From a virus: a DNA stretch of 64,000 nt. Location of the stretch: positions 372,001 to 436,000 of IMG/VR virus record IMGVR_UViG_3300046517_002304, one strand, 5' to 3'. Positions 31,514 to 59,755 of this stretch are shown here, piece by piece; within the stretch, counting starts at the first letter, position 1; every line of letters begins with the position of its first letter. Made by a program: the position numbers and the translations under genes. The notes under the pieces are model-generated. The model was not told where the DNA came from, ran no database searches, and saw nothing but the letters and a program-made list of their open reading frames with translations.

Positions 31514-31942
31514 TTACAAATTCGCTTTTTCTTCGTCAATTTTACGACTTAACAAATCAATCAAGGATGAAATTTCATCCATCTTTTCAGCGCGTTTCGC
31601 TTTACGGTGTAAGGAGAGTTTACCGACAGATATTTTCTCAATCTTAACAGAAGGGGAACATCGCCTTGGGGTCAAAACATCTTTGTCCAAGAAGGCAAAT
31701 ACAGATACCTTACTAGCGACTTTTTTAATAACTGGCTTTAGTTTTTTCGGTTTAATAGAAGCAATAGATGCAACAGCCTTCTTCTTTTTAACTGCTAAAA
31801 CTGGAACCGCTTCTGGCCTACCTTCTCTTCGTACATTTACAACTTTATAAATTCCGCTATAAACCAACTGATGCGGATACTTACGTCGCAACCATCGGAG
31901 ATAGGAGTTTCTGATTCTGACTAAATCGCCAACTTCAATCAT
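31514..31942 (-). CDS. KOW/SH3-like basic protein
   Basis: 142 aa. IEVGDLVRIRNSYLRW and VYSGIYKVVNVRRE form a KOW-like barrel; the rest is very Lys/Ser/Val-rich with alternating KK pairs, probably disordered and nucleic-acid binding. ATGA overlap with the RuvB-like gene upstream. Confidence 0.7.
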   Translation of the reverse strand: MIEVGDLVRIRNSYLRWLRRKYPHQLVYSGIYKVVNVRREGRPEAVPVLAVKKKKAVASIASIKPKKLKPVIKKVASKVSVFAFLDKDVLTPRRCSPSVKIEKISVGKLSLHRKAKRAEKMDEISSLIDLLSRKIDEEKANL

Positions 31943-38342: not shown

Positions 38343-39326
38343 TTATTTCTTGACTTGCATTAATACATAGCCAACTAATAATAAACAAGAAGCACCATAA
38401 AACCAATGATCTAATGATACCACTTCATTGTAAGGCTTCGTTAGATCTAATTCTAAAAATTGATTTGCTATGTTAGTTATCTGACGAGACATGTCCCCCG
38501 ACGATGAATATCGCACATAAGATCCATTTCCTATTGCGGCGATAAATTTGAGTACGCTCTCATCTAGGCTAGAGCGAAGCATGTTTCCTTTGCCATCAAC
38601 GTAGTAGCCCTCAAAAACATTATCTATACGCTTTGTAAGCTTGCAATTATCTGACCCTAGTCCGATGCTGCTGAACACAAAACCAAACTTCTTCAATTCA
38701 CTAATATGTCTTTTAATTTCATCTCGGTCAATAGTCAATCCTTCCTCAAGGCCACCATCAGACAATACAACAACAATGTTCTTACCGCTAGTGATTTTAC
38801 GATTATTAGCAATTTGATGTAATGCAGAGAACGCACTCTCAACCGAAGTTCCTGGGATATCTACTACCTTATAATCCACTTCACGAAGAAGAGTTAAAAA
38901 AGTACTTTTTTTAGTTGTTAAAGGGCAGTATCCAATGTTTGCCGCGCCCGAGAATGGAATCAAACTTGTGGCAGCAACACCGGGTAATTCGATATAAGAT
39001 TTTTCTATTTCCTGCTTTGCGGCAACCAATCGGTTAGGCCGAATATCCTCACACATCTGCATACTTTTGCTAACGTCCAAGAGGAAGAAAAATCGGATAT
39101 CCTTATAGGCATACTTGACGACTTCCCTATAAGGCCCAGCTAGGCCAATGATAGCGCTGCCGATTGCAGCTACCAAAAGTATAACGGCAGTCATTCTGTT
39201 TTTAAAACTAGGCGTATTGCCCAGCAGACTAATCTCGCCGAATCTACGGATTCGCTTTGCGGCGATGAAGATTACTGGGATTAGCACGAAGAGGAAGTAC
39301 AGGTAATTAGGTGATAGAAGGTGCAT
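38343..39326 (-). CDS. vWA membrane protein, BatA/BatB-like
   Basis: 327 aa. Two N-terminal transmembrane helices (about 8-24 and 46-64), a vWA domain, and a C-terminal helix (near 308-325). The MIDAS metal site is complete: DVSKSM (Asp84, Ser86, Ser88), Thr160 (IPGTS) and Asp190 (VLSDGG). BatA and BatB proteins are membrane vWA partners of MoxR ATPases. It lies 5.7 kb downstream of the main MoxR/DUF58/BatA stretch, after RRF and the MKAEV array, and looks like a second copy of the same role. Confidence 0.85.
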   Translation of the reverse strand: MHLLSPNYLYFLFVLIPVIFIAAKRIRRFGEISLLGNTPSFKNRMTAVILLVAAIGSAIIGLAGPYREVVKYAYKDIRFFFLLDVSKSMQMCEDIRPNRLVAAKQEIEKSYIELPGVAATSLIPFSGAANIGYCPLTTKKSTFLTLLREVDYKVVDIPGTSVESAFSALHQIANNRKITSGKNIVVVLSDGGLEEGLTIDRDEIKRHISELKKFGFVFSSIGLGSDNCKLTKRIDNVFEGYYVDGKGNMLRSSLDESVLKFIAAIGNGSYVRYSSSGDMSRQITNIANQFLELDLTKPYNEVVSLDHWFYGASCLLLVGYVLMQVKK

Positions 39327-39332
39327 AGATAA

Positions 39333-39671
39333 TTAAGAATCTTTATACTTAACATTAATTTTTACATCAACACGATAATTACAAGGTATTTTATTTTTAT
39401 TAGCATTATATCCAGTATATCCCTTACAATTAATGGGGGTACCATCATATTCGGTTAATTTTTTGGCTACCGCAGTCTTAATCGCACTAAGAACATCTAT
39501 GCTGTATCCGCCTTGCTTACAACCGTGCTTATTGCTGCAACAAGCAGTATCTTCTCGATATCCACAGTGGATATCCCGTATTAAAAATGACGAATAAAAA
39601 TCACTCTCTTTAACAGTATACGTTATATCCGATGCTTCGGGAAACATTTCTAACAATTCAAATTTATTCAT
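39333..39671 (-). CDS. Hypothetical Cys-containing protein
   Basis: 112 aa with CGYREDTACCSNKHGC in the middle and a later Cys pair, perhaps a small disulphide or zinc domain. Tyr/Lys-rich. A TATAAT lies five bases upstream of the ATG. Function unknown. Confidence 0.66.
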   Translation of the reverse strand: MNKFELLEMFPEASDITYTVKESDFYSSFLIRDIHCGYREDTACCSNKHGCKQGGYSIDVLSAIKTAVAKKLTEYDGTPINCKGYTGYNANKNKIPCNYRVDVKINVKYKDS

Positions 39672-39676
39672 AACCT

Positions 39677-39682
39677 ATTATA
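39677..39682 (-). promoter_or_regulatory. Promoter -10 element next to start codon
   Basis: TATAAT on the minus strand, five bases before the ATG at 39671; the -35 is poor (GATTAA at 17 bases). AGGTT lies between, so a very short leader is also possible. Confidence 0.4.
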
Positions 39683-39699
39683 GTTCCCCAACCTTCTTC

Positions 39700-39840
39700 T
39701 TAATCAGCTTCTACCCTAATTGCTGCCGGGACTGGATGCGCTTCAATGTAATAGAAGCCAGCAAATGCTATCGACAGCCAAATTATAGCGACAATTAGTG
39801 GTCCAGTATCTAAATCCGTCCAAAAAGTTTTTTTACCCAT
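39700..39840 (-). CDS. Small membrane protein
   Basis: 46 aa, ATG 39838-39840, TAA 39700-39702, overlapping the RRF gene by 8 bases. One transmembrane helix (IVAIIWLSIAFAGFYYI). Function unknown. Confidence 0.6.
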   Translation of the reverse strand: MGKKTFWTDLDTGPLIVAIIWLSIAFAGFYYIEAHPVPAAIRVEAD

Positions 39841-40294
39841 TTATCTCATCCACCTTCATTTCAACTAAGTCCACAATTTCTTTGTTAGCCGCATCCGTCA
39901 TCTTCTGCACTTCTTTGTCGTCCAACTCTTTGCGGGCCTTATGCCTAATATTTCTAATTGATATTTTCGCTTGCTCTCCTAATGCCCTCACGAATTTAAT
40001 AATCTTTTCTTTCTCCTCTCCACACCTTTTTGGCACGCTTACAACCACACTGTTCTTTGAAAAGACATAAGAACTAAATCCAGATTTCTGAAGTGCCGTA
40101 TTTATAGTTCCTAGTAAAGCAGGGTCATAAGGCGTGATTTGTATTCTTTTCCCGTCACTGTACACCATCGCAATGTGCTTCAATTCGGAAGTGCTTCCGT
40201 AACACTCTATCTTGACCGAATCCAGCATACCCGGAGAAACAGAGTCTCTAACCCCCTGTAGTTGCTCTACCAAATGATCTACCGCTTTGCTCAT
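39833..40294 (-). CDS. frr: Ribosome recycling factor, shortened
   Basis: 153 aa against about 185 in bacteria. ECYGSTSELKHIAMVYSDGK, ITPYDPALLGTINTALQKSG, VVSVPKRCGEEKEKIIKFV and the helix-I motif ISIRNIRHKARKEL ... QKMTDAANKEIVDL follow RRF in order, with the RNIRR-like basic patch that contacts 23S rRNA. The deficit is spread over the N-terminal helix and helix II to III region. With EF-G it would split post-termination ribosomes, or it might compete with host RRF as a variant. AAGG precedes the ATG. Confidence 0.88.
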   Translation of the reverse strand: MSKAVDHLVEQLQGVRDSVSPGMLDSVKIECYGSTSELKHIAMVYSDGKRIQITPYDPALLGTINTALQKSGFSSYVFSKNSVVVSVPKRCGEEKEKIIKFVRALGEQAKISIRNIRHKARKELDDKEVQKMTDAANKEIVDLVEMKVDEING

Positions 40295-40307
40295 TTGAGC
40301 CTTAAAA

Positions 40308-40472
40308 TCAGCACAAGCGATTTTTGTTTTTCTTCATGATTATTTCCTTTGCTTTTTCTGGGTCCATCTTAAAAATCTCAACATAGATATCGTAATCACT
40401 CATAAGTTGCATGCTCTTAAAAACAGGCGTTTTATTAGACCCTATGACATCTACTTTTACTTCTGCTTTCAT
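40308..40472 (-). CDS. MKAEV-family small protein
   Basis: 54 aa, ATG 40470-40472 after AAGTAAATC, TGA 40308-40310. Starts MKAEVKVDVIGSNKTPVF, as do five genes in the array at 41.8-43.2 kb, but ends in a charged helix with no LWN. Six bases separate it from the TAT protein's stop. Function unknown. Confidence 0.65.
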   Translation of the reverse strand: MKAEVKVDVIGSNKTPVFKSMQLMSDYDIYVEIFKMDPEKAKEIIMKKNKNRLC

Positions 40473-40475
40473 GAT

Positions 40476-41465
40476 TTACTTCTTTTCGCTAACAGTCATA
40501 GCCAGATATTTTTTACCACCAAGTATCTTTGTAGAGAATCCTTGGAAAACAACATTTTTACTAAAATCAATCCTTGTTCCACGCGACGACCGCCAGGTCG
40601 GATATTTAATTACGCTAGCGTTAATATACTCAACCGCCTTCTTAGAAATATCTTCTAACCAGATCAATTCCTTGTCTAAACTATATTCACTATCATTAGC
40701 GCTAAACGGCTTCGGACTTACATATGGAATCAACAATACAGAAGTCATGCCATCAAAATTAGATAACGAATTTGGATTTCTGTTATCAAACTTATGCTCA
40801 ACATATGGAATAATTCTTCTTACTAATGAAATAGATACTCTATAAAAGTCAGTCTCTTGATGAGAGTCAAATACACGAAAAGCAGAACTAAATGTTTCTT
40901 GTGCTTCTAGACAATTAGCGATACGATAAGCCGTTTCGCCTTCTAGACCTTTAAGCATTCCTCTATCATTCCACTTTTTGTAAATATTAGCAGACGCTCC
41001 GGCCTTCTCCCAGATATCCCTATTGTCGGTCGCCACATCTTCCAATTCTAGTCCGGCACCTACGCGATGCGCATGTATAGCGTCCAATATACTATTAATA
41101 GTCTGATGTTTTTTATACGATAAAACCAACTGATCGCCTGGATCGCCGTTGATGAATAACTGAACAAAGTGTCCTTGGCGACAATACTCGTCAAATACAT
41201 CATTATCAAACATTTTAATAGATGCAATGTATTCATCTTTAAAGAAAACGGCAAAGCTGTCCGCTTCAGGAAGAGCCTTCATCTTATACCCATACTTGCA
41301 ACATCTCAAATCGCTGTCGGATAATTCCCAACGATCACCGTATCCGGTCTTAAATTCAACTTTACTCAAATCAACCGCTTCTTGCTTCTGCACACTGGCG
41401 CTTAAATTCTGGATACCAACTAATGGTAGTAACGCACCCGCACTCAAAAATTCTCTTCTTAACAT
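40476..41465 (-). CDS. Exported protein with twin-arginine-like signal
   Basis: 329 aa. MLRREFLSAGALLPLVG is a TAT-type signal (RRxFL) followed by a likely cleavage after LSA. Residues about 55-140 (YGYKMKALPEADSFAVFFKD ... HAHRVGAGLELE) repeat the domain that makes up the whole gene at 41530. The C-terminal half resembles no family known to me. Consensus promoter and AAGGAC in front; 64 bases upstream of it are gene-free. Confidence 0.72.
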   Translation of the reverse strand: MLRREFLSAGALLPLVGIQNLSASVQKQEAVDLSKVEFKTGYGDRWELSDSDLRCCKYGYKMKALPEADSFAVFFKDEYIASIKMFDNDVFDEYCRQGHFVQLFINGDPGDQLVLSYKKHQTINSILDAIHAHRVGAGLELEDVATDNRDIWEKAGASANIYKKWNDRGMLKGLEGETAYRIANCLEAQETFSSAFRVFDSHQETDFYRVSISLVRRIIPYVEHKFDNRNPNSLSNFDGMTSVLLIPYVSPKPFSANDSEYSLDKELIWLEDISKKAVEYINASVIKYPTWRSSRGTRIDFSKNVVFQGFSTKILGGKKYLAMTVSEKK

Positions 41466-41495
41466 GATCTTGTCCTTTTTGAAAATTATTACTCT

Positions 41496-41523
41496 ATTTT
41501 ATCATTAAAAATTACTTTGTCAA
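41496..41523 (-). promoter_or_regulatory. Sigma70 promoter
   Basis: Minus strand TTGACA (41518-41523), 16-base spacer, TAAAAT (41496-41501). It drives the TAT protein at 40476 with a leader of about 25 bases containing AAGGAC. Confidence 0.7.
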
Positions 41524-41529
41524 CGTCAA

Positions 41530-41802
41530 TTATTCTAGCCCCAAATTCACACGAGAATCATGGATAAATTTTAGTGTACTCTGGACTGACGGATACTCAT
41601 CTGCCTTAAGATTAACATATGCAAAAGTATCAGAGTCTTTAAAAATAACAGAATGAGCATCAGGCTCCTCGTACATCTTAACTTCTGCTATCTGTTGGTC
41701 TTGCAAGTATATCGGAAAAACCTTGCGTTCTTCCGACCACATAATATCGTAACCATAATCAGAGCTAGTAAGCTTACATAATTCATCTTTCATATCTTTC
41801 AT
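41530..41802 (-). CDS. Stand-alone domain shared with the TAT protein
   Basis: 90 aa. DYGYDIMWSEERKVFPIYLQ ... EVKMYEEPDAHSV ... STLKFIHDSRVNLGLE parallels residues about 53-137 of the next gene. It has no signal peptide, so this copy is probably cytoplasmic. GGAAG precedes the ATG. Function unknown. Confidence 0.72.
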   Translation of the reverse strand: MKDMKDELCKLTSSDYGYDIMWSEERKVFPIYLQDQQIAEVKMYEEPDAHSVIFKDSDTFAYVNLKADEYPSVQSTLKFIHDSRVNLGLE

Positions 41803-41821
41803 AATTCTTCCTTTTTAAAAA

Positions 41822-42076
41822 TTAATTTTCTTCGTAATTTAAATTCCATAAATTCGCATCACACCCATTTTGGGTAGTTATAAACCAATAGCCAACATAA
41901 TATGAACTTTCCCCAAAAGATAAAAATTTAATCCCATGATGTTTAGCATATGATTTAAACTTCATCACCAAATGCTTCGGCACAGCCCATCCCAGGCTAT
42001 GTGAATTACCAGAATAAACACTGAATATTGTAGATGTACTTTCATACGCAGTAGTTATCTTAACTTCAGCTTTCAT
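41822..42076 (-). CDS. MKAEV-family protein
   Basis: 84 aa, MKAEVKITTAYESTSTIF to a C-terminal LWNLNYEEN. One of five tandem paralogues: N-terminal strand MKAEV(K/R/S), a variable beta core, a V(P/S)-x-x-(L/V)V helix and LWN/KWN ending. Function unknown. Confidence 0.72.
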   Translation of the reverse strand: MKAEVKITTAYESTSTIFSVYSGNSHSLGWAVPKHLVMKFKSYAKHHGIKFLSFGESSYYVGYWFITTQNGCDANLWNLNYEEN

Positions 42077-42294
42077 GTTTTAAACTCCTCGTAAAACCGG
42101 TACAGATAACTTCGATTAACTTCAAATCCACTATACTTGGCGACACAAGGTATTTTATACTTTTTAATAAACTGCGCAAGATGTACGCGATCAGCAAAAC
42201 TTGCGCCTTTAATAAACCTAATAGCATTATTAATATAGGTAATTGTTATTACCGGCTTTTTATGGTCAACTACTATCTTTACTTCTGCTTTCAT
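42073..42294 (-). CDS. MKAEV-family protein
   Basis: 73 aa, MKAEVKIVVDHKKPVITITY at the start; shorter than its neighbours and lacking the LWN end. Coupled by four-base overlap to the gene at 41822. Function unknown. Confidence 0.7.
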   Translation of the reverse strand: MKAEVKIVVDHKKPVITITYINNAIRFIKGASFADRVHLAQFIKKYKIPCVAKYSGFEVNRSYLYRFYEEFKT

Positions 42295-42295
42295 A

Positions 42296-42532
42296 TTAAA
42301 CTGCCCAATTCTCTACATCATACATCTTATTCATTCTGAAAACATAATTGACGCCATCAGATGCACAGGCTAAATAATAAATTTTTGATCCCATTAATCT
42401 TTTCGTAAAAACGTCAACAACATCTGGTGGAACATATACCATTTGAGCACCGGAAATCTCAGAAGGACCAGATTTTACCCCTCTATGACCAAAAGTGGTT
42501 TTTAGCAATTCTATCTTTACTTCTGCTTTCAT
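42296..42532 (-). CDS. MKAEV-family protein
   Basis: 78 aa from the ATG at 42532 (ATGA with the upstream stop). AQMVYVPPDVVDVFTKRL matches YVYVPPDLVDLFTSC in the gene at 42917, so these two are the closest pair. Ends VENWAV. Function unknown. Confidence 0.72.
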   Translation of the reverse strand: MKAEVKIELLKTTFGHRGVKSGPSEISGAQMVYVPPDVVDVFTKRLMGSKIYYLACASDGVNYVFRMNKMYDVENWAV

Positions 42533-42744
42533 TCTTGAATATTCCACTTAGTAGGATCTACAGAGCCTGGCACCTTATAGCTATAATAACTGTACATGTG
42601 ACCAGTTTGATTTTTAAAACACGGCACACCTTTACTTTCCGCTATTTCCAGGAACTTATCAAGAACAGTCTTCTTAACCAAAATATCTTTCCATAGAGAT
42701 AATTGATTGAAATTAAAAATACTTACACTAACTTCTGCTTTCAT
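42529..42744 (-). CDS. MKAEV-family protein
   Basis: 71 aa from the ATG at 42744 (ATGA overlap). MKAEVSVSIFNFNQLSLWKD at the start, TKWNIQE at the end. Function unknown. Confidence 0.7.
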   Translation of the reverse strand: MKAEVSVSIFNFNQLSLWKDILVKKTVLDKFLEIAESKGVPCFKNQTGHMYSYYSYKVPGSVDPTKWNIQE

Positions 42745-42920
42745 CCTGAACCGCCCAATTCTCTCCATCGCTCAAATAATTTATGCCTAGTTTCCTTACT
42801 GATAGCAATCATAAATGCCGGACTTAGCAATTTCCGTCGCAACTCTTCTTTTTCATTCTTAATTCTTGCAATTCTCTTGCGCTGAAGTCTCAGTGATTCA
42901 GATATAATGTGATAAATCAT
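42741..42920 (-). CDS. Small basic helical protein
   Basis: 59 aa from the ATG at 42920 (ATGA overlap). A long charged helix (SLRLQRKRIARIKNEKEELR). It interrupts the MKAEV array and may bind nucleic acid. Function unknown. Confidence 0.65.
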   Translation of the reverse strand: MIYHIISESLRLQRKRIARIKNEKEELRRKLLSPAFMIAISKETRHKLFERWRELGGSG

Positions 42921-43159
42921 TCTCGCACATTCCATAATCTAACATTATGAAAAGCGGGGATGCGAAATACAGTACAGGACATTAATGGCGTTCCTTTCTG
43001 TATGAAGTATTTTACTCCACGATCTTTAGCACATGATGTAAAAAGATCAACTAAATCTGGCGGAACATAAACATACTGTATTGTATCCCACTTACCGACA
43101 TCAATATTTTTAAACGGTTGCCTGAAATCTAACAAACTTATCCTTACTTCAGCTTTCAT
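42917..43159 (-). CDS. MKAEV-family protein
   Basis: 80 aa. MKAEVRISLLDFRQ at the start, YVYVPPDLVDLFTSCAKDRG in the middle, RLWNVRE at the end; closest to the gene at 42296. First member of the array in transcription order. Function unknown. Confidence 0.72.
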   Translation of the reverse strand: MKAEVRISLLDFRQPFKNIDVGKWDTIQYVYVPPDLVDLFTSCAKDRGVKYFIQKGTPLMSCTVFRIPAFHNVRLWNVRE

Positions 43160-43284
43160 TTTTTATTCTTATAAGTTTTTAAATTCTGCCGAACACGTTC
43201 CGCTTTTTCACGATTACCATTACGATCTAAAACCTTCTTCAGTTGTTTCCTAACTGCATCCGATGCAATGTGGGGGCCAGTCAT
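43156..43284 (-). CDS. Very small basic protein
   Basis: 42 aa, ATG 43282-43284 in TAATG with the upstream stop, TGA overlapping the next ATG. Helical and basic (AVRKQLKKVLDRNGNREKAE). Function unknown. Confidence 0.6.
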   Translation of the reverse strand: MTGPHIASDAVRKQLKKVLDRNGNREKAERVRQNLKTYKNKK

Positions 43285-44039
43285 TAAAACTGTCCTTTAT
43301 TCGGACTGGCTCCTACTAGCGGGCTAGTAAGCTGTTGGACTCTTTCTTCACGAGGCTTCTTTGCCTGCGCCATCATTTTTTCTTTTTGCTGAAGAAGAAG
43401 TTCAATATTAATCTGACTGTTCAAATCCTTATCCTTATACTTCAAAGAATTCTTAAATGCGTTCAGTGAATTAAGAAAAGTTTCTTCCGCATTATCGGGA
43501 GTAGACAATAGCTGCAAATGACGGAAGTAAATGCATCCTTTTGTGTACCACAACATATAGTTGTATTCACTAGAGCCATTATAAGAAATAGTTTCAACGT
43601 AAACCTTTGCCTCATTATAATCCGATATAATACTACGGGAAAGAGTTGATATGAGCGAATGCTGCTCAGGAGTCAAATAAAAATTAGCTTCTGGTTTAGA
43701 CGTATCTCTGTTATCATAAAAAACCTTATGCAGGTTTTTAGCCTTAACGAAATCTCGCTCTGCTCTACGAAGCAATGACAGCGCCATCTTAAGCTTCAGA
43801 ACAGACTCAATTTCGTTTTTGTTATCAACTTCTAGTAAGGATATTTTATACTCAATATTTTTAATGTCATCTGGCTGCGCGGGAGCTGAATTAGCATCAT
43901 CCATCGCTCGCTGTACAGAAGATATGTTATTGTGCTCTGTATCAGAGCGATTCTTATATGCAGAATATACCACATATATTACCACAATAATAAACGCATT
44001 AATACTAAGCCAAACCAACCCATTCCACAACTTACTCAT
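43284..44039 (-). CDS. Membrane-anchored helical protein in the Bat module
   Basis: 251 aa. One N-terminal transmembrane helix (about 10-27), then a soluble helical domain with TPR-like spacing (LRRAERDFVKAKNLHKVFYD; YTKGCIYFRHLQLL; FLNSLNAFKNSLKY) and a Gln/Pro-rich tail. In bacterial Bat operons a TPR-containing protein (BatB/C/E type) follows the vWA genes in the same way. TTAGGAG precedes the ATG. The TPR call is tentative. Confidence 0.68.
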   Translation of the reverse strand: MSKLWNGLVWLSINAFIIVVIYVVYSAYKNRSDTEHNNISSVQRAMDDANSAPAQPDDIKNIEYKISLLEVDNKNEIESVLKLKMALSLLRRAERDFVKAKNLHKVFYDNRDTSKPEANFYLTPEQHSLISTLSRSIISDYNEAKVYVETISYNGSSEYNYMLWYTKGCIYFRHLQLLSTPDNAEETFLNSLNAFKNSLKYKDKDLNSQINIELLLQQKEKMMAQAKKPREERVQQLTSPLVGASPNKGQF

Positions 44040-44048
44040 AAGATACTC

Positions 44049-45062
44049 CTAAACAGATGTTATGTTTTTATTAACTAAAAAAGCGGCGCAAATCATTACT
44101 AAGGCCAGCAATGCAAAATGCTGAGAAAACGACTTCTTATGCCAGACCTTAGTGTTTTTATAAGCGGACTCAATCTCAAAAATCTTCTTGTATGCCTCTG
44201 CTAAATTTTTAGGCTTAACAACTAGAAAATCTCCCCCAGTGTCCTTAACCGCTTTTAAGAAACCAGAAGAACCCATTATACCACTAATCGGCATTAAGTC
44301 AATGATATAAACAGTAATTCCGAAATTTTTACATAAATCAACGACCTTAACAGCAGAAAGATCAGACCTATTCATTGCCGTTGGATTGAAATAACCATCG
44401 GTAAAAAGAACCAGACAATTTCCCCGAGCCATTTCAGATATAGAAGATACTTTGTTTTTAAGTTTACTTATATCAGCCGTAACACCGGCTCCCAAACATC
44501 CTTTATGCATGATTTCTAAATCTGCATCAAGTAGTCCAGTATTCTTAAAGGCAACCTTAACGCCGGTCCATAAAGCCTTTTCTACTTGAGTTCCGCCAGC
44601 AAGCGGAGGCTTTTCCCAATTAATGTCGTTCATTTTTTCTACAATGAAATCAGTATCATCAATTAAATAAGATACAACAAAAGCATTATCTGAAAAAACA
44701 ACAAAGCCCACCAAGTCCTCTCGCTTCTTTTCTTTCAGTAAATCTAGAAACTTTTCATTTGCATCCATCAATGGCTCAACTAAACTCCCGAAAACCATTG
44801 ACATTGATCCGTCATTTATAAGAGTATAGCTTCTTTTTGGTGATGCATATTCAGTATAATAACCAGAAAAGCATATTCCTACCGCTGCACAGAAAAGTGA
44901 TGCACAAGCAATATAATTGAAGGCTTTTCCATAGTTAAACTTTGACTTAACGCCAGAATAAACTATAGATGAAATCTTTACATAGTATTTTGGCTTCCTT
45001 AGAATAAAAAACAAAGGAACCAATACAACTAAAAACAACCAATAAGAATGCTCTAACGTCAA
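44049..45062 (-). CDS. vWA membrane protein, BatA-like
   Basis: 337 aa from a TTG start at 45060-45062, seven bases after AGGAG; an earlier in-frame TTG at 45080 is less well placed. Two transmembrane helices at the N-terminus and one at the end frame a vWA domain whose MIDAS is complete: INDGSMSM (D-x-S-x-S, near residue 84), Thr in AGGTQ and Asp in LFTDGY. Membrane vWA proteins of this type interact with MoxR ATPases. Directly follows the BatD/DUF4381-like gene. Confidence 0.86.
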   Translation of the reverse strand: MTLEHSYWLFLVVLVPLFFILRKPKYYVKISSIVYSGVKSKFNYGKAFNYIACASLFCAAVGICFSGYYTEYASPKRSYTLINDGSMSMVFGSLVEPLMDANEKFLDLLKEKKREDLVGFVVFSDNAFVVSYLIDDTDFIVEKMNDINWEKPPLAGGTQVEKALWTGVKVAFKNTGLLDADLEIMHKGCLGAGVTADISKLKNKVSSISEMARGNCLVLFTDGYFNPTAMNRSDLSAVKVVDLCKNFGITVYIIDLMPISGIMGSSGFLKAVKDTGGDFLVVKPKNLAEAYKKIFEIESAYKNTKVWHKKSFSQHFALLALVMICAAFLVNKNITSV

Positions 45063-45064
45063 GA

Positions 45065-46537
45065 TTAGGCTCCTGAGCAACAGTCAAGATTAACTAACTG
45101 CTTTAGTCTAACGATATCTGGAGCGGTATCCCTAGCATACGTCTTTTCCAACTCATCAAAAATTTCATGTGCGGGGAAATATCTCGTATCATAATTTGGA
45201 TTCAATTTTAAATATTCGGACATAATCTTAGCATAAACATCGCGCCAGTTATTCTGGTCGCAACCGTTTAATAGACCATTTAAAATATCCTTAAAACTAG
45301 GAATATATTCCACTATAGCAGGCTCTTTAGATGAAAAGAAAAAGTAATTAAAGCCTACCCCAATAAGAACTATAAGAACACCACATATTAGCGCAACGTA
45401 CGCAAAACTCTTCCCAGAAATACTTGCAAGAACACATGGGTAATTATAGTTATCTGGTATGCTCTGAATATCTGTAATCATTGGAGTCAGTAAGCTAGAT
45501 ACATGAAAGACAGGATTTATTTTTATTAGGGTTGAACCAACCGTATTATTGTGTGTTGTAGAAACATAGTGATAGGCGCTAAATTGAAAAAGACCTGGAG
45601 TATAAACATGAAAAGGGTAAACAATACTATATGTCCAATAATCTTTATGATATGCCTTTTTTACCTGTGGATCTTTAAAAGCAATTAAGTTTTCGTCTAT
45701 CTGCTGCATTGATAAATTAGATGAAAATGTTGCGGCAGTGACGGTAGGGTTAATATCAAACACCGATTCAAATGTTAGATGTGCAATTTCCTCTTCTTCG
45801 GAAACCTTGTAGCTATTCGGAAGAGTGATTTCGCAGTGCAAGAACCGTTCTTCTCCAAGCGTTCCAGCACCATTATTTTCCAGCCATACCTTAACGCTAA
45901 CCTGTTCTACCGGCGACATAAGAGGATGCACGCTGCTAAAGAAGGCATATCCAGATAAAGTGGTTGATAGATATATAGAGTTTCTGTATACTCCGTAATC
46001 ATCCATATGAAGAATATATTCTCCTGGGGAAATAAGCGGAGTTAGCTTAAATTCAGGCGTGTGTAAAATAGATTCTAAATACTTATTAACAGCTTCTATG
46101 GCAGATGGTTGTTTGACACTAATCCGAACGCCATCAGACAAAAAATAAAGATTACCGTTTTCGTCCTTAATAACTGGTATCATTTGCTCATACTTACCCA
46201 ATACCTTAATGGTATCCCTAATGTTATCAAACTCTATCATGTAGGCATTTGCGTTATTACTCGCCCAAATCCCAAGCCTATCCTGCGGCCTAGATGCAGC
46301 GGCGTAGTCAGAAATTTCTTTTATGGAACCACTGTATTCTTTTACAATATCCTGCACAATTTCAGTGCTCAACACTCCGTAGCCTGTATTACCTTTGTAT
46401 AAAAGCATTTTCGGCTGTAGTTCCCAAACAACCAAATTTCCATTTTTGTTCTTATAAGAAAAGTCGGTATCAGTATATGTTCTAGCAAAACTCACATTAG
46501 CGAGCAATAGAGTTAACACAAAACAAATAATTCTCAT
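45065..46537 (-). CDS. BatD/DUF4381-like membrane protein
   Basis: 490 aa. Signal peptide at 1-18 (LLLANVSFA), a long periplasmic beta-rich region (19-375), one transmembrane helix (about 378-402) and a cytoplasmic tail of about 88 residues whose YAKIMSEYLKLNPNYDTRYF and HEIFDELEKTYA recall the C-terminal domains of DUF4381/BatD proteins next to bacterial MoxR-DUF58 genes. ATGA coupling with DUF58. Identified by architecture and position more than by sequence. Confidence 0.65.
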   Translation of the reverse strand: MRIICFVLTLLLANVSFARTYTDTDFSYKNKNGNLVVWELQPKMLLYKGNTGYGVLSTEIVQDIVKEYSGSIKEISDYAAASRPQDRLGIWASNNANAYMIEFDNIRDTIKVLGKYEQMIPVIKDENGNLYFLSDGVRISVKQPSAIEAVNKYLESILHTPEFKLTPLISPGEYILHMDDYGVYRNSIYLSTTLSGYAFFSSVHPLMSPVEQVSVKVWLENNGAGTLGEERFLHCEITLPNSYKVSEEEEIAHLTFESVFDINPTVTAATFSSNLSMQQIDENLIAFKDPQVKKAYHKDYWTYSIVYPFHVYTPGLFQFSAYHYVSTTHNNTVGSTLIKINPVFHVSSLLTPMITDIQSIPDNYNYPCVLASISGKSFAYVALICGVLIVLIGVGFNYFFFSSKEPAIVEYIPSFKDILNGLLNGCDQNNWRDVYAKIMSEYLKLNPNYDTRYFPAHEIFDELEKTYARDTAPDIVRLKQLVNLDCCSGA

Positions 46538-47319
46538 AATAGTTTCCTTACCAGCGGCAAAAGCGGATTCTGCGAAATAACATCTATACTAATCGGCGTA
46601 CAATTCAATCTTAATAAATCTGTATGAATTTTATCTTGCCATGCGGCATACTTGGTCTTTGACAAATTGGCGTTCACATAGCATCCGGTTTCACCGTCAA
46701 AACAAACGCATGTTCCATAATTATTTTGATTTTCATTCATTATTAATGAATAAATTTTATTATTAGCAGATATAAACCGAATAGCTCTTTTCGCCTTCTC
46801 CGTTAATTCAAAATAAAAATCTGAAATAATAAACACTAATGAATTTTCAGTTAAGCAGTTAGACAGCGCAGCCAAAGCGCTTTCTACATTAGACTTCCCA
46901 CTAAAAACTACCCCGGCAATCGCATCCTGCACTCTGCCGTAGTCATTAGTGATAGACATCTCTTGTGCCTTATCGCTAAACGTTAGTAACGATATTCTAT
47001 CTCCAGAAAACTCAGTTAAAAACAATAGGTACAACGCTGCCAGCAAACTTACATCAGATTTATCGCCGCATTCTCCAGAACCAGACGTATCTAAAACAAT
47101 ATAGACATCTAGTTGTTTTTCTGGATCATATGTCTTTGCCATTATTTCATGGCATTTAATGCTATTTTTTGTATCTATTCTCTTATCAGACGGCTGAAAC
47201 TTCTTGGCTGAATTAATGTCCTCATAGTTATCCAGTAAAGATGATAGGTGATTGCCGCTTGGATAGGCGGATAGTAGGTTTTTAGCCTTTAATTCAAGGT
47301 GTCTGAAATTGCACTTCAC
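46534..47319 (-). CDS. DUF58 protein (MoxR-associated)
   Basis: 261 aa. GNHLSSLLDNYEDINSAKKF followed by SDKRIDTKNSIKCHE matches the DUF58 signature (G.h.S...G.g.ef...R.Y..gDd.R.IDW...A). The second half is a vWA-like fold with LDTSGSG (D-x-S-x-S) and ISDFYF. DUF58 proteins are cytoplasmic partners of MoxR. The start is GTG (47317-47319) with no ribosome site, inside a perfect inverted repeat, so expression may be controlled there. Confidence 0.82.
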   Translation of the reverse strand: MKCNFRHLELKAKNLLSAYPSGNHLSSLLDNYEDINSAKKFQPSDKRIDTKNSIKCHEIMAKTYDPEKQLDVYIVLDTSGSGECGDKSDVSLLAALYLLFLTEFSGDRISLLTFSDKAQEMSITNDYGRVQDAIAGVVFSGKSNVESALAALSNCLTENSLVFIISDFYFELTEKAKRAIRFISANNKIYSLIMNENQNNYGTCVCFDGETGCYVNANLSKTKYAAWQDKIHTDLLRLNCTPISIDVISQNPLLPLVRKLL

Positions 47320-47335
47320 TAAATAAAGTAGTGAA
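47315..47335. promoter_or_regulatory. Inverted repeat at a divergent start
   Basis: TTCACTA (47315-47321), seven bases, TAGTGAA (47329-47335), a perfect 7-base palindrome. It overlaps the GTG start of DUF58 and lies just upstream of the plus-strand gene at 47349. It may be an operator or an mRNA hairpin that hides the DUF58 start. Confidence 0.45.
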
Positions 47336-47348
47336 TACTAAATAATAT

Positions 47349-47528
47349 ATGATGGAAAAATTCACTAATTTCTTCGCTTCCTGCTCTAGCTGGATTAAAG
47401 CCAAAAAACTTCAAATTTTAAGCTACGGTATTTTGGGCGTAATCCTTTGGTGGACGATTGTCGCGGTCTGGTGGGTAATCAAGATAATCCTATGCACCTG
47501 CTTCGGCATCTGTATCCTTTTTCCTTAA
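47349..47528 (+). CDS. Small membrane protein
   Basis: 59 aa, ATGATG at 47349 to TAA 47526-47528. Basic N-terminal helix then a Trp-rich transmembrane helix (GVILWWTIVAVWWVIKIILC). TACTAAATAATAT sits directly before the ATG. Transcribed against the Bat module. Function unknown. Confidence 0.62.
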   Translation: MMEKFTNFFASCSSWIKAKKLQILSYGILGVILWWTIVAVWWVIKIILCTCFGICILFP

Positions 47529-48011
47529 TTATCTCTTCACCAAATCTTCGGCTCGTGGAAGCCAATACAGATTACTTAAAAATCCTATATGATTGTTATA
47601 CGCATACTTCGGCTTAGTATATCCATTCTTGAATAGATTAAGCAATTCTTTAGATTTAGCCGACCTAAAATAATGACCTGGACTTTTGAGTACTGCCGAA
47701 AAAATTGACTTCCTGAAGGAGTTAGCCGACCACCACCTGCCTAAATCAACATAAATAACAAATTCTGTATCGGTAACATAAAATTTCGCTTTATTTTTAA
47801 CCTTAGCATCTTTTTCAAATTCTATAATTCTGGAAACTGCATTCTCCCAGTTCCGACTACGAAAGTAAAAATCTCTATGACCTACTAGGTATTGTTGGAG
47901 ATTATCTCTACAACCGACCCAGTTGCCGTTACTTCGCGCGAATCGCATTCTTCCTCTACCATATCCGTAAATAGCGTTAGGCACATGAAGCGTACTCTTA
48001 GGTAGTTTCAT
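47529..48011 (-). CDS. FW-GYT family protein, tandem copy 2
   Basis: 160 aa. VDLGRWWSANSFRKSIFSAV followed by LKS and LFKNGYTKPKY align with the upstream gene at every step, and both begin MKLP. AGAAAGG precedes the ATG. Function unknown. Confidence 0.75.
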   Translation of the reverse strand: MKLPKSTLHVPNAIYGYGRGRMRFARSNGNWVGCRDNLQQYLVGHRDFYFRSRNWENAVSRIIEFEKDAKVKNKAKFYVTDTEFVIYVDLGRWWSANSFRKSIFSAVLKSPGHYFRSAKSKELLNLFKNGYTKPKYAYNNHIGFLSNLYWLPRAEDLVKR

Positions 48012-48012
48012 A

Positions 48013-48495
48013 CTAACCTTTCTTAACTAATTCTTTAGGCTCTTTTGTTTTTAAGTTCTCTAAAAATCCATCTGACTCTGTGTATTTTATAGACGGCACA
48101 TGATACCCATCAATAAATAACTTAAGCAATTTTTGCGGCTTATCACCAGCAAAATACTTCTTTCTACTTTTAAGAATGGCCGAAAAAACAGACTGTCTCA
48201 AAGAATTCGCAGACCAGAAACTTCCCATTTTAACGTAAATACAATTCAATGTCTTAGTTTGATAAAATTCAGCAGGCTCTTTTAATCCCATCATTTTTTC
48301 AACATCGCGGACTCTTTTAACGCCAGATTCCCAAGTCTTATGGTAAAAATAAAATTCATTCGTGCTATGACTCACAATATAACTATGAAAAATATCCCTG
48401 CACTCAGTCCAATAACTTGTGCGAAATTTCGCCCTATTGTTCATACTCAAGTACATTGTACTTGGTGCGGGATTACCTGTTGGCGGTAACTTCAT
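48013..48495 (-). CDS. FW-GYT family protein, tandem copy 1
   Basis: 160 aa from the ATG at 48495, after TGAGG. MGSFWSANSLRQSVFSAILK and LFIDGYHVPSIKY show it to be a tandem duplicate of 47529; more distant relatives lie at 36312 and 62481. Function unknown. Confidence 0.75.
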   Translation of the reverse strand: MKLPPTGNPAPSTMYLSMNNRAKFRTSYWTECRDIFHSYIVSHSTNEFYFYHKTWESGVKRVRDVEKMMGLKEPAEFYQTKTLNCIYVKMGSFWSANSLRQSVFSAILKSRKKYFAGDKPQKLLKLFIDGYHVPSIKYTESDGFLENLKTKEPKELVKKG

Positions 48496-48502
48496 CTTAG
48501 CC

Positions 48503-48721
48503 TCAAGAAATGTAAGCTGTTCCGTTTTTAACAACTAGACTGTCCGCAACTCCGGCAATAACTACATGCGGCTGTGTTTTACGCTTCCTGCTGAATGTCC
48601 GCACGCTACAATCTAAATCATCTACTAATAGGCATTGCCCACGATAATGCACAGTTAATTTCGGTGAACCAAATTTACGTGAGGCAGGTTTGTTATAATG
48701 ATACCAGAAACTATAGCTCAT
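48503..48721 (-). CDS. Small beta-rich protein
   Basis: 72 aa, strand-rich (PKLTVHYRGQCLLVDDLDC) and basic. ATGA overlap with the thioredoxin gene. Function unknown. Confidence 0.66.
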   Translation of the reverse strand: MSYSFWYHYNKPASRKFGSPKLTVHYRGQCLLVDDLDCSVRTFSRKRKTQPHVVIAGVADSLVVKNGTAYIS

Positions 48722-49005
48722 TTCAACTCAGCCAGTCTGCCTAAAATAATATCTTCTTTCTGAAGTCCTTCTAGCCTTGATTCTTCCTTACCATCTTTAA
48801 AAAAGATGATCGTTGGTACAGCACGAATTTTATAATGGTTCGCGGTATCAGCAGAATGCTCCGCATCAACCTTAATAATCTTGACCACCTCTTTTAATTT
48901 GTCAAGAACTGGCTCCATCATTTTGCACGGACGGCACCAACTAGTATGAAAATCTACTAAGACAATTCCGCTCTTAATTTCATCATTAAATTCTTTTAAA
49001 TGCAT
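48718..49005 (-). CDS. Thioredoxin
   Basis: 95 aa, a single thioredoxin fold. TSWCRPCKMM is the redox motif (Cys24, Cys27; Arg in place of the usual Gly), VPTIIFFKDGK the cis-Pro loop, with KVDAEHSADTANHYKIRAVP typical. It reduces disulphides in the cytoplasm. Many phages carry one for ribonucleotide reductase or as a polymerase partner; no reductase is in the window, so it may serve the Bat module or another oxidoreductase. Confidence 0.92.
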   Translation of the reverse strand: MHLKEFNDEIKSGIVLVDFHTSWCRPCKMMEPVLDKLKEVVKIIKVDAEHSADTANHYKIRAVPTIIFFKDGKEESRLEGLQKEDIILGRLAELK

Positions 49006-49349
49006 GTTTTTTTACTCCTTACGAATGAGTTGGTCCCTGATTGGACCAACGATTGAACGGCATTAAATGAAATAAACTTAACATCTACCGCTAATAAAGC
49101 AACCTCACTCAATAAAGTTATCTGAGCGTTTTTAAGCGGCTTCAAATCCCCAATATACGTTGACTGACCCGGACAATGATAGACAATGTATTCCTTCCCA
49201 TCTAGAAGAAGTGGACCTTGAATAACCTTGATTTTATCATTAACCCTCAAACGACGCATAGTCTTATAGGTGCCATCAGCGGAATAAATTCCGCTTGCCG
49301 TATTCCCAAGCACCCGAACTATATCGCCTACTTTAATCTTGCGCATCAA
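48996..49349 (-). CDS. SH3-like protein of the 'SFVR' family
   Basis: 117 aa. KVGDIVRVLGNTASGIYSAD and DKIKVIQGPLLLDGK form a KOW-like barrel; the C-terminus KFISFNAVQSLVQSGTNSFV followed by RSK matches the genes at 25835 and 26118. ATGA overlap with the MoxR gene. Function unknown. Confidence 0.72.
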   Translation of the reverse strand: MMRKIKVGDIVRVLGNTASGIYSADGTYKTMRRLRVNDKIKVIQGPLLLDGKEYIVYHCPGQSTYIGDLKPLKNAQITLLSEVALLAVDVKFISFNAVQSLVQSGTNSFVRSKKTCI

Positions 49350-50449
49350 TCACCGTGTACTTTAACATTTCCAAGTGTTTTAGCAATTAAATCATCAATT
49401 ACATGTGATTCAGTTTGCAAATGTGGTGAAACATCAAGCAAAGAAGGAATTGCAGCGGGGTTAAGAAGCAATCGCCCTCTAAGAATTCTCGTGGCAACCG
49501 ATGCAATATCAAACGGGACAACATAATCTCTACCATTTAGCATAGCGTGCGCCATCCCGCCTGATTCAAGGTGAATCATAACACGATCATTCGCTGCGGG
49601 ATGCTGCTTAAATATCTGAATATTCTCTAAAACTTTTCTTTCAGCAACAAACAAACCGCTTTCAGCGGGATTATTAATAGCATTTAAAATTCTGGCACAG
49701 TAATAACGAATCTTGTCATCAACATAAACATGATCAAAGAAATACTCTCTTGCCTCATTTACGTCATCAAGCGTCATAACCTGCTTTAGCTCGTCAAAAT
49801 TAAAATGATGAGTTCTCTTTGCTACTTCAACTTTTTCATCTGCTGTAGTCGGCTTCATCAATACTTTATAAACAAACCTATCGCTTAAAGCTTCTGAGAG
49901 CTTGGACGTTCCCTTGTGCTGCTCTGATGGGTTAAGCGTAGCAATACAAATAAATGGATTTTTTAATTTATATGTATTATCCCCAATCGTCACCTGTTGC
50001 TCGGCCAACATTTCCAAGAATGCAGATTGCGCCTTTGGGCTAAACCGATTTACTTCATCTGCTAATAGAATATTAGCTTGATATGCGGCACCATGAACAA
50101 CGTGCTTGGTTGAATCCAGTAAATACATTTCGGAACCGACTAGATCGCCTGGTTGGGCGTCTGGAATACCAGAAATTCTCTTATTAGTTCCTGCCAGAAT
50201 AGACGAAACAGCTTTAACCAATACTGTCTTACCAGTCCCAGTACTTCCCTCAAGCAAAACGTGGCCGCAACCTAAAACTCGTTCTTTTGTTTCAACATTG
50301 AAATCTCTCTGGCCAACAGAGAATAGTCCCATGACCACCGTGTCAATCGCTTCAGTTTGGGCAACAATAATTCTCTTAAGAGCGTCCCGCAAAGGAAATA
50401 CTCTGGTCGTAAGATATTCTTCAAATTTAGCCGGACATTTAAACTTCAT
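49346..50449 (-). CDS. MoxR-family AAA+ ATPase
   Basis: 367 aa. Walker A EGSTGTGKT (about 67-75), the MoxR-specific RISGIPDAQPGDLVGSE, Walker B NILLADEVNRFSPKAQSAFL, sensor 1 FICIATLNPSEQHKGTSKLS and an Arg finger in SDRFVY, then the helical lid. MoxR ATPases act with DUF58 and vWA proteins as chaperones that mature or insert proteins and metal centres. It heads the module at 43.3-50.4 kb, with thioredoxin and two FW genes interposed before DUF58. Confidence 0.92.
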   Translation of the reverse strand: MKFKCPAKFEEYLTTRVFPLRDALKRIIVAQTEAIDTVVMGLFSVGQRDFNVETKERVLGCGHVLLEGSTGTGKTVLVKAVSSILAGTNKRISGIPDAQPGDLVGSEMYLLDSTKHVVHGAAYQANILLADEVNRFSPKAQSAFLEMLAEQQVTIGDNTYKLKNPFICIATLNPSEQHKGTSKLSEALSDRFVYKVLMKPTTADEKVEVAKRTHHFNFDELKQVMTLDDVNEAREYFFDHVYVDDKIRYYCARILNAINNPAESGLFVAERKVLENIQIFKQHPAANDRVMIHLESGGMAHAMLNGRDYVVPFDIASVATRILRGRLLLNPAAIPSLLDVSPHLQTESHVIDDLIAKTLGNVKVHGD

Positions 50450-50451
50450 AA

Positions 50452-51039
50452 TTATTTCCTATTATAATGACAGTCAATTACATTACTACGGTAAAACTCT
50501 TTATATTCCATTATTCTTTTCTTGGATCTTAATCTGCTATATTCACCGGTATATTTTAGAACAGAAAGATACTCGTTCATCTTTTTCTTTCCCCATGCCT
50601 CAACCCACTTTTCGGCCTTCCATGCAGTTGCGATTGCTGCTTGAACATTATCTCTGTCCCTACTGTGATAAGACTTCCAAATTTTATTCCTATAGCAGTG
50701 TACGTGTCCCAACTCATGAAATACAAATGTAAACAATTCATTAATATTATAAAAAACAGAAAAATTTAAATAAATGCTTCCGCATGAAGCTGTGGACGCC
50801 TCTATTTCGCAATTCTTTCTAATAACAAATTGAACATCATGCTGTAAAGAAAGCTTAGTTAAAAGTTTTTTAATCGTATTTATATGCCTGTCCGACATAA
50901 GCAACTGACTTTTCATTAAGTCAGTTGCGCCATTATTAAATACAACCCGATTATTTTTCCACATCTTTTTGCACATTCGGCAATTAGACGTAGGCTTCCT
51001 CAAAACTCGATACTTTGGATGCTTTTTACATTTAATCAT
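50452..51039 (-). CDS. SprT-like zinc metalloprotease
   Basis: 195 aa. N-terminal C-x-x-H and TSNCRMC knuckle, then VFHELGHVHCYRN with HExxH and a following His. The layout of a small zinc-binding domain plus HELGH resembles SprT/Spartan-type proteins, which cut DNA-bound proteins. Could also be an Imm-A type peptidase. ATGA overlap upstream. Confidence 0.72.
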   Translation of the reverse strand: MIKCKKHPKYRVLRKPTSNCRMCKKMWKNNRVVFNNGATDLMKSQLLMSDRHINTIKKLLTKLSLQHDVQFVIRKNCEIEASTASCGSIYLNFSVFYNINELFTFVFHELGHVHCYRNKIWKSYHSRDRDNVQAAIATAWKAEKWVEAWGKKKMNEYLSVLKYTGEYSRLRSKKRIMEYKEFYRSNVIDCHYNRK

Positions 51040-51437: not shown

Positions 51438-51545
51438 TGGTATTCCAACTTTCATTGTAATTGTAGCCCTTCCGCTACCTTCAAAGTTTTAACTTCACTC
51501 CCTACGACCAGTTCTTGTAGGAAGATTTCACCCGAGAGTTTCGCG
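51438..51545 (-). ncRNA. Possible TnpB guide (omega) RNA
   Basis: The last 90 bases of the TnpB-like gene plus the gap form three hairpins in a row on the minus strand: CCTAC/GTAGG (51501-51521), AAGTT/AACTT (51484-51495) and GTAGC/GCTAC (51463-51478). In IS605-type elements the guide RNA lies exactly here, with its guide just after the scaffold. No transposon end is recognised, so the guide boundary is not fixed. Confidence 0.45.
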
Positions 51546-52906
51546 CTCTTATTTCGGATACTGCCAACAAATTCTTTTAGATCTGCCAGACTAACCCGTA
51601 GTCCTGTAAGGACGGCTTCCTCAACGTTGTCATTCAATTTCCGCCATAAAACCCATGAATGAATTCGTTTATCTTGGTACTTTCCTGCAAGGGTTCCCAA
51701 AACAAAATCCTTCACTCGTTTTTTAGCTTGTTTATAGAATGACAATTTTTCATTAAATCCAAGTCCTCTACGTCCTATCACGTAGGCCGCAGATTCATGG
51801 ATAGTAACCTTGTGCATCCAGCGATACTTGTACTTTCCGATAATACTAGTAAACGCCGGATTAACTTTTATATACTCAACTCCATGCTCAATACATTTTC
51901 GTTCTAATAATTCTATGAATTTACGCCATACAAATGGTGCTCTTCCGCGATTTATTTTTCTTCCGCTAAGACAAATCTCTTTTTTAAAGAACAAGTTCTC
52001 AAACACGATACCCTTATTCTTTTCTTTGGCATAATTAATTACTTGTTTTACTAAACATCCGATATCGTAATCTCTTTTATGGGTAGAACCATATAATAAA
52101 CGATTATTAATTAATGACTTGGATTCTACGAGGTTTCCATCTTTGCTTACTTCAGCCAAGGCGATTCTGTCAGGGTTTGTGTCTACCCCTATACAGCCGT
52201 TGCCTAATTTAGTTGTTGGTTCTGGAGCAGTAATTTGATAATCAATCTTAACATAAAAATGAGTGGCATCTTTTCTAATTAACCGAACATTATATGCTCT
52301 ACCGCTTTGAAGTAATTCTTGCAATCTTTCCTGAAACTTTTGTGGTATGAAAAGATGGTAATAAACCCATTTTTTAAAACCTATCGTAATTCTGAGCCTA
52401 TCGCCGACAATTCTGGCATTAAGATTTCCCTGCCGAGAAGCCCTTCCGCGGCAATAAATTTGCTTATTTCTATTATCTGTCCACTCCGCTTTTGTGATTT
52501 TGCCTAACTTGTAATCTTTCCATGCCTTTCTACCACCAAAGACAAGCTTATAATTACTAATTAATTTATCAATTCGCCCAAGTCTTTTTTTTAATTTGTT
52601 TTTTTGTTTTAAAGAAATCTTCGTTTTTATTTTTTGCTCTATAATTTGTCTTTTTTCGCAAAATCCTTCTATTTCTGATAAAACTTTCAAATAATAAGTT
52701 TGCCCTTCATTTACGGCGTCTGCCAATTGTCTAGAATTTAAATTATTATAAATACCCTTGGCCAATTTCTGAACCGAATAGGGCATCATCTTAGTTTTTA
52801 AAAACTTACAATATGAAAAACGAACACATGATTGAAAATCTATAATCAAACCATCTAGTTCATCAAAATTTATAGCCCATAATTCTCCATGTATAATTTT
52901 AAACAT
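51452..52906 (-). CDS. TnpB-like protein lacking zinc ribbon, altered RuvC
   Basis: 484 aa from the ATG at 52906, overlapping the aldehyde dehydrogenase end by 8 bases. N-terminal helical region, OB-like middle, then a RuvC fold: motif I IGVDTNPDRIA (Asp242), motif II VFENLFF (Glu303) and motif III IHESAAYVIGRRGLGF. In active TnpB, motif III has Asp (DRDINAA-type) and is preceded by a CxxC...CxxC ribbon; here the Asp position is His370 and no ribbon exists. It belongs to the 'accessory TnpB-related' group. No TnpA gene is nearby. The TnpB fold is clear; nuclease activity is doubtful. Confidence 0.85.
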   Translation of the reverse strand: MFKIIHGELWAINFDELDGLIIDFQSCVRFSYCKFLKTKMMPYSVQKLAKGIYNNLNSRQLADAVNEGQTYYLKVLSEIEGFCEKRQIIEQKIKTKISLKQKNKLKKRLGRIDKLISNYKLVFGGRKAWKDYKLGKITKAEWTDNRNKQIYCRGRASRQGNLNARIVGDRLRITIGFKKWVYYHLFIPQKFQERLQELLQSGRAYNVRLIRKDATHFYVKIDYQITAPEPTTKLGNGCIGVDTNPDRIALAEVSKDGNLVESKSLINNRLLYGSTHKRDYDIGCLVKQVINYAKEKNKGIVFENLFFKKEICLSGRKINRGRAPFVWRKFIELLERKCIEHGVEYIKVNPAFTSIIGKYKYRWMHKVTIHESAAYVIGRRGLGFNEKLSFYKQAKKRVKDFVLGTLAGKYQDKRIHSWVLWRKLNDNVEEAVLTGLRVSLADLKEFVGSIRNKSAKLSGEIFLQELVVGSEVKTLKVAEGLQLQ

Positions 52907-59715: not shown

Positions 59716-59755
59716 CTTTGCTTCCTTTTTCTTAGAGAAATTTTTCGGCATTATT

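Follow-up and report, generated by a model that had tools for sequence, protein, structure and literature searches.

In bacteria, Bat operons follow the arrangement MoxR-DUF58-BatD/DUF4381-BatA-BatB-TPR-BatD-BatE, where TPR denotes a tetratricopeptide repeat gene. Phages, for their part, were previously known to carry single pairs of a MoxR ATPase and a vWA-domain protein. Within the open-access papers searched, MoxR is reported in huge or jumbo phages only as the pair of the group 2.2 jumbo phages, and the main text of the huge-phage survey mentions neither MoxR nor von Willebrand domains. Here we describe a full six-gene membrane Bat operon in a window of viral DNA, i.e. a stretch of 64,000 nucleotides corresponding to bases 372001–436000 of the 511,233-base IMG/VR virus record IMGVR_UViG_3300046517_002304. 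Judged from their sequences, these six genes almost certainly form a phage-specific Bat operon, and on this evidence a full operon of this kind in phages is unreported so far.

The viral hallmarks found on the same record include a Gp23 T4-type capsid gene (5e-87), a T4-type portal gene (6e-63) and a terminase large subunit gene (TerL; 2e-12), and no 16S rRNA gene was found across its 511,233 bases. The portal and Gp23 models gave zero matches among 14 control cellular genomes. An initial annotation of the window, made from its letters alone, had taken it for phage DNA and had named a bacterial chromosome or plasmid as the outcome that would make the module ordinary; the capsid, portal and terminase genes, together with the lack of a 16S rRNA gene, bear out the phage assignment and rule out a bacterial contig or contamination by host genes. 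At 43%, the terminase nearest to that of the window genome is from the uncultured phage LR756511.1 (595 kb); the next relatives reach 33%.

All six open reading frames (ORFs) were recovered where the initial annotation had placed them, on the minus strand throughout (Table 1). MoxR (gene 1) displays a Walker A motif (GSTGTGKT), a Walker B motif (ILLADE) and an arginine-finger region (ALSDRF), has no transmembrane (TM) helix by inspection, and finds its closest solved relative in 2r44 (5e-43). The DUF58 protein (gene 2), also devoid of TM segments, is a vWA protein whose metal ion-dependent adhesion site (MIDAS) reads DTSGS/ISDF. This site reads DGSMS/FTDG in the BatA-type protein (gene 4), which has two N-terminal and one C-terminal TM segments, and DVSKS/LSDG in the BatB-type protein (gene 6), which has two N-terminal TM segments and a C-terminal hydrophobic helix visible in orthologues; the latter protein is 31% identical to a BatB of Verrucomicrobiota. 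Genes 3 and 5 gave no direct Pfam match. The predicted layout of gene 3 comprises an N-terminal signal or TM segment, two alpha/beta domains, a beta-sandwich, a TM segment at about residues 378–396 and a helical cytosolic C-terminus, and the AlphaFold model of its orthologue from locus L012 reached a predicted local distance difference test (pLDDT) of 71 and a predicted template modelling score of 0.43. Gene 5 carries a TM segment at residues 7–25 and was modelled as an all-helical structure (pLDDT 74). Apart from Ig-like and helical folds, fold searches with the gene 3 and TPR models brought up no clear homologue. Neither PADLOC nor PHROGs matched the module at system level, and the result of a promoter and terminator scan was no better than chance.

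Scanning bacterial genomes with the alignment of phage BatB produced 80 Bat loci from Verrucomicrobiota, Bacteroidota, Planctomycetota, Thermodesulfobacteriota and other bacteria. Parsing succeeded for 57 operons, each running from MoxR through DUF58, a middle gene and BatA to BatB, with at most 248 bases between BatA and BatB; after BatB they usually continue with a TPR gene and then a gene of ~600 aa. Gene 3 pairs with the bacterial middle gene over the stretch that covers the beta-sandwich, the TM segment and the helical C-terminus (hhalign p 7.6e-7, probability 92%), and gene 5 with the TPR gene (hhalign p 8.6e-6); the other hhalign pairings, which served as controls, reached 1.7e-3 or weaker. 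Reciprocally, a hidden Markov model of the bacterial TPR gene retrieved the phage copies of gene 5 as its best matches in hmmsearch (2e-8 to 5e-5; window copy 3e-6), so that the protein described in the initial annotation as membrane-anchored and helical can be matched, on both searches, to the TPR gene of Bat operons. The BatD/DUF4381-like label first given to gene 3 was right as well, because the bacterial middle genes carry matches to BatD (PF13584) and DUF4381 (PF14316), at or somewhat below the cut-offs.

The six genes occur in identical order and strand in seven phage contigs, i.e. the window record and six more ranging from 38.6 to 595 kb, a recurrence well above anything that chance would give. 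They run end to end in LR756511.1 (595 kb), and the full set is found in the IMG/VR contigs 3300017388_000001 (436 kb), 3300014202_001521 (341 kb) and 3300036766_002288 (187 kb), as well as in two short ones, 3300009537_004351 (41.6 kb) and 3300037264_005791 (38.6 kb). Two fragments, 3300037264_004563 and 3300020193_001248, hold truncated copies whose remaining genes keep this order. A TnpB-like gene is inserted in 3300020193 between BatA and TPR, both of which are unbroken. A TnpB/Cas12f-like gene inside the module was recorded at L103:4068-5843. IMG/VR was scanned with alignments of two or three phage copies of MoxR, BatB, BatA and DUF58, all of which gave the same small set of contigs, and single-sequence scans of IMG/VR with the window MoxR and DUF58 gave no matches. 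The search of large phages for MoxR beside DUF58 and BatA, suggested by the initial annotation, returned LR756511.1 as the sole carrier in the annotated phage collection besides the further contigs in IMG/VR, in keeping with the view that such a module is unusual in a virus. MoxR matches from gut phages and a Listeria phage (~33% identity) were set aside, being without a DUF58 match and possibly prophage or host fragments.

Protein identities between the window and the other phages span 46–52% for MoxR, 30–32% for DUF58, 28–35% for BatB, 27–33% for BatA, 23–27% for TPR and 17–24% for gene 3. The divergence of TerL parallels that of the module, both between the window genome and LR756511 (TerL 43%, MoxR 51%) and between LR756511 and 3300014202 (TerL 79%, MoxR 85%), and neither DUF58 nor MoxR was found in the whole genomes of four of the next TerL relatives (30–33%). 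A replication neighbourhood that includes genes for a DnaB-type helicase and for a family A DNA polymerase is shared by the loci of LR756511, 3300014202, 3300036766, 3300009537 and 3300037264, while the DnaB helicase lies ~375 kb from the module in the window genome and ~150 kb from it in 3300017388; the block therefore stayed intact while its surroundings changed. Among close copies, dN ranges from 0.08 to 0.23 with dS >1, a comparison that is qualitative only since dS is near saturation. In 23/23 phage vWA copies, the MIDAS retains both its DxSxS and its [ST]D part, and the Walker A, Walker B and arginine-finger regions are conserved among phage MoxRs. Inteins of 347 and 336 residues sit exactly at the Walker A of two phage MoxR genes (L005:8819-10924 and L008:8891-10987), the first of which was checked and contains Hint and LAGLIDADG domains. 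Inteins tend to settle in active sites that are conserved, in proteins that are needed.

In the MoxR tree, whose root is arbitrary, all seven phage sequences fall on one side of a 100/100 branch and 55 bacterial sequences from more than 10 phyla on the other. The bacterial sample was picked by similarity to phage BatB, and a closer bacterial source may therefore exist outside it. On these comparisons, one lineage of huge phages has an old Bat operon of its own, passed on vertically, rather than a stray set of host genes. A recent capture of host genes carried as cargo, with no maintained phage function, could be imagined since bacterial Bat operons are widespread; this reading is refuted by the single deep phage clade, the conserved motifs, the signs of purifying selection, the recurrence in at least 9 contigs and the phage-specific gene order, and we grant it next to no probability.

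The topology of the encoded proteins was predicted from hydropathy and charge pattern, following the positive-inside rule. In BatA and BatB, a pair of segments near the N-terminus, separated by a positively charged stretch, is typically joined by a third at the C-terminus; gene 3 combines a signal-like start with one late segment, and gene 5 has one N-terminal segment. Under this rule, the vWA and TPR domains are therefore predicted to face the periplasm, and four of the six proteins would be anchored in the inner membrane with periplasmic domains, MoxR and DUF58 being cytosolic. The predicted topology agrees with that measured for the Borrelia homologue BB0173, an inner-membrane protein with three TM segments and a periplasmic vWA domain (PMC5700661). 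Mutants of a related operon in Rhizobium, as cited in PMC5700661, show envelope and morphology defects.

In the mechanism that we propose, MoxR would form a cytosolic hexamer for which the vWA domain of DUF58 would act as adaptor, and the cytosolic tail of gene 3 would pass the action of MoxR on to the periplasm-facing BatA, BatB and TPR protein. Once assembled, this ATP-driven inner-membrane complex would remodel or stabilise host proteins of the inner membrane and periplasm, so that the envelope of the infected cell could be kept sound, or reshaped, while a very large phage goes through its infection cycle. Stabilisation or remodelling of the host envelope during infection is the predicted function that we consider most likely, with about an even chance of being correct. 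Since the module lies beside replication genes in several phages and far from capsid genes, an early or middle role in the cell fits better than late particle assembly. Among the three roles suggested in the initial annotation, envelope remodelling is also the one that best fits the four membrane-anchored proteins, the distance from capsid and terminase genes and the position beside replication genes in five contigs. Taken as a whole, the best explanation would be a vertically inherited Bat operon of a T4-like huge-phage lineage, encoding an inner-membrane chaperone that acts on the host envelope, an explanation that in our estimate only just qualifies as probable. More tentatively, and with a likelihood that we place somewhat under one half, a lineage of T4-like huge phages may build its own envelope-spanning AAA+ machine as a core part of infection, possibly served by further phage vWA proteins encoded elsewhere.

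Such further vWA loci were observed in these phages. A conserved gene pair, encoding an exported vWA protein with a C-terminal TM segment and an OmpA-like protein, is present at L121 (3300017388; 20-2499) and L125 (LR756511; 478-2257), and is followed at L121 by an additional exported protein. From its sequence, this pair appears to be a second envelope-directed vWA locus in related phages, and it was counted in favour of an envelope role. More vWA families (DUF2828/DUF7788 and soluble vWA) occur at L120 (G000 356-357.5 kb), L122–L124 and L126–L128, some of them 14–32 kb from the capsid gene, and could be additional partners for MoxR in these phages.

Gene positions and membrane topology also bear on the possibility that MoxR and its vWA partners serve as a virion assembly chaperone, folding or processing virion proteins. 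Such a role was proposed for the MoxR-vWA pair of the group 2.2 jumbo phages and reported for the tail of an archaeal virus (PMC7824862); the conservation of the core block would fit an essential phage function, and LR756511 and 3300014202 have further soluble vWA proteins 14–32 kb away from the capsid gene. Yet the module has membrane anchors in four of its six proteins, adjoins DNA polymerase and DnaB genes in several contigs, lies 130–240 kb from the capsid, portal and terminase genes in the large genomes, and lacks the vWA-metallopeptidase fusion by which the jumbo-phage pair is marked. We thus regard virion assembly as rather unlikely, and the maturation of phage proteins suggested in the initial annotation as possible but a poorer fit to gene positions and membrane topology. 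The periplasm-facing proteins, as predicted, would be suited to superinfection exclusion or defence, in which a membrane complex would sense rival elements or phage DNA arriving at the envelope, or block them; MoxR-containing NTP-dependent conflict systems occur in prokaryotes (PMC7159879), and the window MoxR is weakly similar to DolB in PADLOC (2e-11). The other five proteins, however, had no convincing PADLOC match, the bpMoxR model remained below its cut-off, the block contains no toxin or nuclease effector, and its strict conservation and vertical inheritance differ from the patchy distribution and mobility that defence genes usually show. The defence or counter-defence role initially put forward is therefore unsupported by PADLOC or the bpMoxR model, and we hold it to be improbable. 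Protection against redox stress, whereby the module would limit oxidative damage to the host periplasm during infection as proposed for the Bacteroides Bat proteins, is suggested by the name-giving aerotolerance phenotype of B. fragilis (PMC3557215) and by the thioredoxin gene within the block of the window genome. This thioredoxin is missing from the module in all other phages, and a direct periplasmic reducing role is unproven in Bacteroides or Leptospira, as stated in PMC5700661, leaving this explanation with a slight chance only.

Several points nevertheless weigh against an inner-membrane machine acting on the host envelope. The function of Bat proteins in bacteria is itself unsettled, with aerotolerance in Bacteroides and no specific function demonstrated for Leptospira (PMC3557215). 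A periplasm is assumed for the host; the topology is a prediction from hydropathy and charge, and the structure models are of moderate confidence. The capsid-proximal vWA proteins of LR756511 and 3300014202 are, in addition, potential other partners of MoxR.

Table 1. Module genes, inserted blocks and neighbouring features of the window (positions counted from its first base).
Feature	Position	Strand	Details
MoxR AAA+ ATPase, gene 1	49346..50449	-	367 aa; AAA_3 8e-36, AAA_lid_2 9e-7 (Pfam)
DUF58 protein, gene 2	46534..47319	-	261 aa, soluble; DUF58 9e-11, VWA_2 1e-10 (Pfam)
BatD/DUF4381-type membrane protein, gene 3	45065..46537	-	490 aa; hhalign vs bacterial gene between DUF58 and BatA
BatA-type vWA protein, gene 4	44049..45080	-	343 aa; VWA_2 7e-6 (Pfam); vWA predicted periplasmic
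TM-anchored TPR-like helical protein, gene 5	43284..44039	-	251 aa; hhalign vs Bat-operon TPR gene; predicted periplasmic
BatB-type vWA protein, gene 6	38343..39326	-	327 aa; VWA_2 5e-11 (Pfam), BatB_Lepto 4e-16 (NCBIfam)
Block between MoxR and DUF58	47529..49349	-	this genome only; no counterpart at other phage loci; also has a 72-aa ORF
Two related unknown proteins, MoxR-DUF58 block	47529-48011, 48013-48534	-	
Thioredoxin, MoxR-DUF58 block	48718-49005	-	4.5e-23
117-aa ORF, MoxR-DUF58 block	48996-49349	-	
Block between TPR and BatB	39333..43159	-	this genome only; no counterpart at other phage loci; also has a 112-aa ORF
MKAEV-start small paralogues, TPR-BatB block	41822-43159	-	MKAEV repeat family D1
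329-aa ORF, TPR-BatB block	40476-41465	-	no family match
Ribosome recycling factor, TPR-BatB block	39833-40294	-	PF01765, 1.9e-26
195-aa ORF, directly upstream of MoxR	50452-51039	-	HExxH motif; no Pfam match
TnpB/Cas12f-like gene	51452-53071	-	
Aldehyde dehydrogenase gene	52899-54368		
SPFH/Band 7 protein	58549-59751	-	8.9e-18
RuvB-like AAA+ ATPase	31939-32982	-	weak AAA_3 match

Two blocks interrupt the module in the window genome. The thioredoxin, FW proteins and MKAEV array that the initial annotation had noticed among the Bat genes are present, but they are peculiar to this genome, and the block before BatB contains, in addition, a gene for ribosome recycling factor, a translation function that is unusual in a phage. 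The thioredoxin, ribosome recycling factor and MKAEV genes were rejected as parts of the module because the other phage loci are without them at this place. The small ORFs of the MKAEV array have a common MKAEV start and DNA context and diverge thereafter, and the 329-aa ORF begins MLRREFLSAGALLPLVG, resembling a twin-arginine signal. Around the module, the ORF directly upstream of MoxR contains an HExxH motif (FHELGHVHCY) and is a possible metalloprotease, and the nearby TnpB/Cas12f-like gene overlaps the end of the aldehyde dehydrogenase gene. The SPFH/Band 7 protein belongs to a membrane-scaffold family, and the RuvB-like ATPase is the only other AAA_3 match in the genome.

Compared with described systems, the module shares with the pair of the group 2.2 jumbo phages a MoxR ATPase and a vWA partner in a large phage. 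This pair differs by consisting of two proteins, its vWA being fused to a peptidase, and no DUF58, BatD, TPR or membrane vWA protein is described with it in PMC7824862. The vWA proteins of the module contain no peptidase domain in Pfam, the HExxH-bearing ORF upstream of MoxR being a separate gene, and no group 2.2-type annotated jumbo phage was among the matches listed when the annotated phage collection was searched with the window MoxR at E 1e-5. In RavA-ViaA and NorQ-NorD, an AAA+ ATPase likewise acts via a vWA partner on membrane or metal enzymes; in the literature, these systems differ by a single vWA partner, by their assignment to other MoxR subfamilies and by having no membrane vWA pair. 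The bpMoxR ternary conflict systems (MoxR-vWA-beta-propeller, PF20030) also associate MoxR with vWA, but the window MoxR scored 22.6 bits against a cut-off of 27 and no beta-propeller match was found among the module proteins.

The closest likeness is to the bacterial Bat operon, in which each of the six phage genes has a counterpart, genes 1–4 stand in the same order, and the MIDAS, the TM pattern and the soluble DUF58 agree. The bacterial operon order announced by the initial annotation thus holds for the first four genes, but all phage contigs put the TPR gene between BatA and BatB, an arrangement never seen in the 57 bacterial operons, although BatB directly after BatA is a common bacterial feature and does not strictly define the operon. 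The "complete MoxR-Bat machine" is likewise near-complete: models of the long BatD (~600 aa) and of BatE, both variable among bacteria, gave no match in the phage neighbourhoods, to which this search was limited. Phage gene 3 furthermore adds an N-terminal region of ~180 residues, modelled with moderate confidence as two alpha/beta domains, and phage MoxR stands on a very long separate branch. That the block has been retained so deep into phage evolution implies that, for some of the largest phages, looking after the envelope may be a core function. The phage set, a reduced six-gene version of the bacterial operon, also gives a fresh approach to an old question, namely what the Bat complex does, since it points to the essential parts of the machine.

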